A DNA stretch of 33,582 nucleotides from assembly GCA_902511425.1 (NCBI GenBank), contig CABXFE010000013.1, positions 1 to 33,582 on the forward strand, in the 5' to 3' direction. Positions 6,444-7,428 of the stretch are shown piece after piece; position 1 is the first letter of the stretch, and every line of letters begins with the position of its first letter. The notes under the pieces were generated by a model. It was not told the DNA's origin, ran no database searches, and saw nothing but the letters and a program-made list of their open reading frames with translations. The translations under genes and the position numbers were made by a program. This DNA comes from an uncultured SAR86 cluster bacterium (GTDB lineage: Bacteria; Pseudomonadota; Gammaproteobacteria; Magnimaribacterales; D2472).

Positions 6444-6513
6444 AAAAAAAATAAAAGAACTTTCAGGTTGGTAATTAGTGAGAAATGAAATAATTGCTAA
6501 TTTAGTTTATATT

Positions 6514-6564
6514 ATGCCTATGTGTGATTGCTGTAGCTGCTGTAACTGCGATTGTTGCTCATAA
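6514..6564 (+). CDS. 16-aa Cys-rich short ORF, candidate leader peptide MPMCDCCSCCNCDCCS
   Basis: ATG CCT ATG TGT GAT TGC TGT AGC TGC TGT AAC TGC GAT TGT TGC TCA TAA read directly; 8 Cys codons; upstream of gloB on the same strand; overlaps a hairpin. Confidence 0.55.
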   Translation: MPMCDCCSCCNCDCCS

Positions 6565-6585
6565 GCAACGATTAGAGTTTTCTTT
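6550..6585 (+). terminator. candidate attenuator/intrinsic terminator overlapping the end of the Cys-rich sORF
   Basis: GATTGTTGCT-CATA-AGCAACGATT, a 10-bp stem with two G.U wobbles and a 4-nt loop, followed by AGAGTTTTCTTTA. Confidence 0.5.
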
Positions 6586-6630: not shown

Positions 6631-7428
6631 ATGCTAATAAAGCAAATACCCATCCGAAACGACTTAAAAAATTACATGTACCTAATGGCATGTGAAAAAA
6701 CATCTGAGGCTATAGCCATAGATCCATTGGATCATGCCTTATGCCTTGAGACGGCAAAGCAAATGGGGTGGAAAATAACCATCGTTGCTAATACTCATCA
6801 TCATCATGATCATATTGGTGGCAATGGCCCGGTGATTGCTGCGACAGGCGCTGAGTTGGTTTCTCATAAAGATGCAATGGATGCCATACCCAACGTTGAC
6901 AGGGGTTTAATGTCTGGAGATGAATTGCAGTGCGGCGACTTCATTTTAAATGTGCTGGACACACCAGGACATACGATGAGCCACATCTGTTTATATTTTC
7001 CAGGGAGTGCAGATGAGCAGCCTGCATTATTTTGTGGAGATACATTGTTTAATGCAGGAGTAGGCAGGTGTGATTTTGGTGGCGAGCCTAAAATTCTCCA
7101 TAAGACTTTTGAAGATCATATTTTCCCACTTTCTGATGATGTTAGGATCTTCCCAGGCCATGATTATATTGAAAATAATTTAGAGTTTACTCTTGATCGT
7201 GAGCCTGACAATAAGACTGCACTTTCTCTGCGAGACAAATTTAAAAACGGCTTGGATGCAGAAAGTTTTGTTAGTGATATTGGTCTAGAGCGCCAAATCA
7301 ATGTTTTCTTTAGACTTAATGAAAATCAGGTAAGGGCAGGGCTCGCATTAAGCCTTGATCTGGATGTGGCAAGTTTTGATAACCAAAAAACCTTTATTGG
7401 TCTGCGTAAATTAAGGGATACTTGGTAG
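6631..7428 (+). CDS. gloB: hydroxyacylglutathione hydrolase (glyoxalase II)
   Basis: THHHHDHIGG metal motif, TPGHTMSHICLY, FCGDTLF, GRCDFGG, FPGHDYIENNLEFTLDREPDN. Confidence 0.92.
   Translation: MLIKQIPIRNDLKNYMYLMACEKTSEAIAIDPLDHALCLETAKQMGWKITIVANTHHHHDHIGGNGPVIAATGAELVSHKDAMDAIPNVDRGLMSGDELQCGDFILNVLDTPGHTMSHICLYFPGSADEQPALFCGDTLFNAGVGRCDFGGEPKILHKTFEDHIFPLSDDVRIFPGHDYIENNLEFTLDREPDNKTALSLRDKFKNGLDAESFVSDIGLERQINVFFRLNENQVRAGLALSLDLDVASFDNQKTFIGLRKLRDTW

Follow-up and report, generated by a model that had tools for sequence, protein, structure and literature searches.

A cysteine-dense short gene family of SAR86 bacteria, almost certainly leaderless, and a candidate metallothionein-like role for its peptide

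Short upstream ORFs that are rich in cysteine are known from two regulatory settings. In mycobacteria, leaderless polycysteine sORFs act as Cys-responsive attenuators (Canestrari et al. 2020, as cited in PMC9094748, PMC9031893 and PMC13236596). The copper-sensing uORF CruR (DUF2946) is a longer protein of about 145 residues that has a single CXXC and, at its C terminus, a RAPP arrest motif (PMC9426467).

The locus analyzed here lies in a stretch of 33,582 nucleotides (the window) from an uncultured SAR86 cluster bacterium, and it compares with each of these systems in part. It shares with the mycobacterial sORFs a very short, Cys-dense and probably leaderless ORF, an mRNA that would begin at the AUG of the sORF, and a codirectional gene that often comes next, but it belongs to another phylum, is followed by a wide variety of unrelated genes (convergent at three loci), keeps a fixed Cys spacing with constrained non-Cys residues, and shows no cysteine-biosynthesis operon downstream. 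In mycobacteria the attenuator consistently precedes the operon that it regulates and points the same way, whereas no such constant partner was found for the SAR86 ORF. With CruR/DUF2946 uORFs it has in common an upstream ORF with Cys and metal-linked genes near some loci, and it differs in having neither the length of about 145 residues nor the CXXC nor the RAPP arrest motif (PMC9426467); the 69 SAR86 peptides contain zero RAPP-like motifs, end in C-C-x-(K), and are too short for the DUF.

Metallothioneins and phytochelatins resemble the SAR86 peptide in their very high Cys content, their CC and C-x-C clusters, and the acidic or small hydrophilic residues between these. The defining traits of metallothioneins, i.e., a small Cys-rich peptide with CC or C-x-C spacing and few hydrophobic residues, are found throughout the SAR86 family, whose peptides have only 14–19 residues and, unlike phytochelatins, would be made on ribosomes. 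We know of no metallothionein as short as this.

The short gene in the window and its conservation upstream of gloB

The + strand at positions 6514–6564 reads ATG CCT ATG TGT GAT TGC TGT AGC TGC TGT AAC TGC GAT TGT TGC TCA TAA. Within the whole window this is the single ORF of up to 25 aa with at least 6 Cys, and 60 dinucleotide shuffles of the window produced one ORF of that kind and zero with 8 Cys. The features of the locus are as follows:

6508..6513, + strand: -10 promoter element TATATT (6-nt spacing conserved in SAR86 loci; a generic promoter scan finds the same box)
6514..6519, + strand: ATGCCT, the start proposed earlier (not conserved as ATG; taken here as spacer DNA that separates the -10 box from the putative transcription start)
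6520..6520, + strand: putative transcription start on the first base of the ATG (separated by 6 nt from the -10 box; pyrimidine at -1)
6520..6564, + strand: short gene MCDCCSCCNCDCCS, 14 aa, 8 Cys, stop TAA (SAR86 family match; pN/pS 0.18 in the gloB-anchored set)
6550..6573, + strand: hairpin GATTGTTGCT-CATA-AGCAACGATT over the last codons and the stop (genus-specific)
6631..7428, + strand: next gene, gloB-like hydroxyacylglutathione hydrolase (Lactamase_B and HAGH_C domains; 66 nt past the ORF stop)

An earlier note on this DNA had asked for the ORF to be sought upstream of gloB in relatives, and the ORF passed this check. Relatives were searched with the gloB protein, which yielded 16 orthologues in the genus of the window (own genome included, 76–100% identity). 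Thirteen of them were preceded by the ORF with all 8 Cys, zero indels and a stop 63–71 nt before gloB, while the other three (G016, G013, G005) had no ORF and a wholly different upstream region. Substitutions were mostly synonymous (pS 0.43, pN 0.08, pN/pS 0.18), and as these loci were located by gloB and not by the motif, their conservation is free of motif bias. Judged from such comparisons, the short ORF is real, far above chance and strongly selected.

The same note had described a 16-codon ORF from the ATG at 6514, 66 nt upstream of the gloB ATG at 6631 and on the same strand, with no Shine-Dalgarno site ahead of it. Position and sequence were borne out, as was the lack of a Shine-Dalgarno site; the conserved start is nevertheless 6520, and the peptide thus has 14 aa. 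The strict alternation of TGT and TGC that it had reported holds true for the window copy, but relatives have TGT TGT, TGC TGC and other combinations at the same places. Its internal repeat CDCCS..CDCCS is not a feature of the family, in which position 6 can be D, S, K or N and position 11 can be S, T, D, A or N.

Distribution, peptide constraint and promoter geometry in the SAR86 order

The pattern ATGTGYNNNTGYTGYNNNTGYTGYNNNTGYNNNTGYTGY, with up to two mismatches, was found in 75 of the 204 genomes of the SAR86 order (in G089, which is counted here, the start codon is altered) and in 11/22 genera, spanning three families of the order and normally with one copy per genome; the control pattern, read in reverse, had zero matches among the same 204 genomes. 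The family follows MC-x-CC-x-CC-x-C-x-CC-(x)(K)-stop, with the consensus M-C-D/E-C-C-S/D/K-C-C-E/N-C-S/T/D-C-C-S/A-K. Family-wide statistics on the Cys columns carry the bias of the search pattern, from which the gloB-anchored set and the search with five Cys are free. When only the first five Cys were used, 73 genomes were retrieved and the full eight-Cys frame was present in all but G121, which has an early stop; conservation of the last three Cys is thus not a product of the search. Of 369 gammaproteobacterial genomes drawn evenly, two contained the family, both of them SAR86, and it was not found in the sampled gammaproteobacteria outside the order. Among the matches listed in a pattern scan of all genomes, SAR86 cluster bacterium AG-313-N18 carries the same ORF. 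The non-SAR86 matches listed there were discarded, nearly all of them being poly-Cys frames of low complexity (LCCCCC...).

Peptide length ranges from 14 to 19 aa (15 aa in 48/69), and K15 is present in 53/69. The eight Cys are invariant and come only as pairs set apart by fixed single residues, an arrangement to be compared with the contiguous Cys codons of mycobacterial attenuators. Among the 53 unique ORFs, the five non-Cys positions are hydrophilic or small (D/E/K/N/S/T/Q/A, one P), and positions 2–14 contain zero aromatic residues and zero aliphatic residues larger than Ala; as a guide figure, given that the set was picked after the data had been seen, 47% of one-base missense changes would fall outside D/E/K/N/S/T/Q/A. 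The Cys codons of these unique ORFs vary between T and C at the third base, the first one being nearly fixed (TGT in 52/53).

A TATAAT-like hexamer ends exactly 6 nt 5' of the ATG in 60 of 69 SAR86 loci, and a -10 box with at least 5/6 matches lies near the ATG in 67/69 (97%), compared with 13% of the 349 ATG-started genes examined nearby. A pyrimidine stands at -1 in 92% of the 69 loci, directly before the A of the start codon at +1. The alignment of relatives holds from the second ATG (6520) onward, the codon at 6514 being different in most of them. This -10 geometry across 69 loci places the putative transcription start at 6520, the first base of the conserved ATG, and would leave the ATG at 6514 outside the mRNA. 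By this geometry the mRNA of the ORF is almost certainly leaderless, an option that the earlier note had raised and that the spacing strongly supports. Taken together, the sequence comparisons support a family that is under purifying selection on its peptide, has its own promoter geometry, and is independent of any one neighbour.

Neighbouring genes and RNA structure

Genes next to the ORF were called mechanically as ORFs, and their start positions and gaps are approximate. Only in the genus of the window is gloB the direct downstream partner, and 28 types of downstream gene were counted over 63 loci, those in other genera including a beta-helix protein, a MerC-like protein, an alpha/beta hydrolase, an HXXEE protein, an SMR transporter, DoxX, a cupin and a VTT protein, among others. 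The next gene is codirectional in 62/65 loci, a proportion similar to that of ordinary neighbours (363/403). In the remaining three (L075, L080, L142) it is convergent and codes for a cyclase-family protein 32–57 nt away, which makes a leader role for the next gene impossible there. The gap between the ORF and the next gene has a median of 66 nt, against 12.5 nt for ordinary neighbours, and a separate -10 box is not enriched in it (42% vs. 64% in shuffles); a long gap without such enrichment makes co-transcription with the next gene plausible. Matching neighbour pairs were more numerous downstream (130) than upstream (70), with control genes trending the reverse way, and gloB and the beta-helix gene account for most of this downstream excess.

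The loci L048–L169 and the window (1–33582) are an accessory region whose genes are reshuffled between genomes, similar to a cassette array without a recognised integron. Its recurring genes are short, mostly on the same strand and ever-changing in order (MerC, DUF6249, HXXEE, SMR, DoxX, cupin, GFA, glyoxalase, PepSY_TM). The neighbouring MerC and PepSY genes are only suggestive as a hint at metals, the whole region being rich in both. In seven loci of another SAR86 genus (L050, L074, L087, L091, L127, L128, L153), a beta-helix (NosD-like) gene starts 4–13 nt after the ORF, with its start overlapping a terminator-like inverted repeat, and is followed by a gene with CxxCH motifs, probably for a c-type cytochrome.

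The hairpin at 6550–6573 is well kept in the genus of the window (94.6% of cells paired in 13 sequences vs. 14–59% when slid), its 5' arm being constrained by the coding sequence. Covariation is weak, with one compensatory change from C-G to U-A, and 41/500 shuffles reach as much. No hairpin of this type was seen in other SAR86 genera, and it is consequently not part of the basic function of the family; within the genus it may end or protect a short mRNA. Ribosomes at the stop codon would melt it, so that Cys shortage would favour the hairpin, the opposite of a classical attenuator. Downstream of the ORF, no conserved terminator was found outside the genus of the window, and terminator-like structures occur in 13% of SAR86 loci vs. 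5% of shuffles. A conserved terminator and antiterminator between leader and gene, as in the trp, his and leu attenuators, were likewise not found.

The earlier note had proposed a leader peptide tuning gloB and the MerC and PepSY genes after it. As a general function this is not supported, given the 28 downstream types, the three gloB orthologues without the ORF, the three convergent loci and the lack of any structure conserved beyond the genus, while a cis effect on gloB within the genus of the window is possible.

Viral look-alikes, rival readings and the candidate thiol peptide

A scan of marine viral contigs gave 37 stretches (L214–L250, e.g., L234:1706-1756 and L218:3577-3621) with peptides of the form MC[KDN]CC[KDEN]CC[TNSD]C..C. 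Eight of these matches lay inside a longer reading frame, in an internal frame, and a ninth seemed spurious; all nine were set aside, leaving 28 peptides of 13–17 aa, such as MCKCCKCCSCTCC and MCKCCKCCTCTCPECN. The search itself imposed the first ten residues, but neither the later Cys nor the length. The viral peptides (MCKCCKCCTCTCPECN, MCKCCKCC[SN]CTCC(E), MCNCCDCCDCGCGCKS) resemble those of SAR86 in length and in how their first seven Cys are spaced (C-x-CC-x-CC-x-C-x-C). They differ in that most have Shine-Dalgarno-like sites, many overlap the start codon of the next gene, and they are tightly packed in other gene contexts than in SAR86, without the SAR86-type promoter or the K-stop end. 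Named-phage records carrying the viral peptides were sought and none was found, phage records searched with the window region gave no match, and the relatives of one viral contig are marine cyanophages, in a match that does not cover the peptide. As the extra Cys and the length were not selected by the search, a function of the peptide becomes more likely, and the recurrence in viruses suggests that the peptide rather than a leader function is what recurs; viral and SAR86 peptides may be convergent.

The genus of the window also stands out in its sulfur metabolism. No PAPS/APS reductase scored over the Pfam cut-off in any of its 27 genomes, compared with 14/14 controls, and glutamate-cysteine ligase is present in 18/27, which suggests that the genus takes up reduced sulfur and makes glutathione. 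These two observations bear equally on a cysteine-sensing role.

Such a role would be that of a Cys-responsive leader, in which a shortage of charged tRNA-Cys would delay ribosomes at the eight Cys codons and thereby alter transcription or translation of the next gene. The putative leaderless start directly after the promoter, the density of Cys (8/14 codons), the 62/65 codirectional next genes behind a long gap not enriched in -10 boxes, the hairpin over the ORF end in the genus of the window, and the undetected PAPS/APS reductase, whose absence may make reduced sulfur limiting, all fit this mechanism, which has a mycobacterial precedent (Canestrari et al. 2020, as cited in PMC9094748 and PMC9031893). 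We regard it as the main rival reading, with clearly less than even confidence, as the 28 downstream gene types have no evident cysteine theme, three loci are convergent, no terminator or structure is conserved beyond one genus, the viral look-alikes start mostly from Shine-Dalgarno sites, and the strict Cys spacing, the hydrophilic-only spacers and K15 would be superfluous for a codon counter.

Considerably less probable is a nascent leader that senses metals or thiols, similar to CruR, whose binding of a metal or electrophile would alter termination or expression of the next gene. The Cys motif and the first-cistron position near MerC-, PepSY- and glyoxalase-type genes in many loci agree with it, as does the copper-sensing uORF precedent (PMC9426467), but there is no arrest motif such as RAPP, the downstream genes are not consistently metal genes, and the three convergent loci count against it as well. 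Moreover, a nascent peptide of 14–15 aa would remain within the ribosome tunnel when the stop codon is reached. That the ORF is a chance product or a conserved non-coding element (a small RNA, or a DNA site reading as Cys codons) we consider scarcely credible: it is indeed very short, and an Rfam scan of the region gave a single chance microRNA match and nothing meaningful, yet selection is frame-specific with third-base changes in the Cys codons, start, stop and promoter geometry are all conserved, and an 8-Cys ORF is absent from shuffles.

The fixed Cys spacing, the hydrophilic spacers and the conserved Lys end, which a codon-counting leader does not need, favour a thiol peptide acting in trans; a peptide folding round soft metal ions would need such spacing and such spacers. 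We therefore lean, with slightly better than even confidence, towards a leaderless SAR86 microgene that functions through its peptide, which is probably a minimal chelator of the metallothionein type. Transcription from the -10 promoter would begin with the A of the start codon, translation would begin at the 5'-terminal AUG, and the product would be a hydrophilic peptide of 14–19 residues with eight Cys in the spacing C-x-CC-x-CC-x-C-x-CC. In trans, in the manner of metallothioneins or phytochelatins, this peptide would bind soft metals (Cu(I), Zn, Cd, Hg) or buffer thiols; at most loci the ORF would probably also open a transcript that continues into an accessory gene, which differs from locus to locus (gloB in the window). 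We infer transcription, translation, metal binding and physiological role of the ORF alike. The peptide MCDCCSCCNCDCCS contains no tryptic site. More tentatively, and with clearly less than even confidence, we propose that SAR86 and, in parallel, some marine viruses encode the smallest gene-encoded metallothionein-like peptides known (13–19 residues, 7–8 Cys, C-x-CC-x-CC-x-C-x-C(C)), which in SAR86 would come from leaderless mRNAs and, being so short, escape gene callers.

SAR86 are among the most abundant bacteria of the surface ocean and are largely uncultured; a literature search found no paper naming SAR86 together with small cysteine-rich proteins. The arrangement of TATAAT, 6 nt and ATG offers a simple search rule for further leaderless microgenes. 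From this family it seems that Cys-dense sORFs without a leader also occur beyond mycobacteria and that genes of such size escape standard gene calling. Eight Cys in a gene of 14–15 codons, in a lineage without a detected sulfate-reducing step, would point to a mode of metal, thiol or cysteine management that has not been recorded before.
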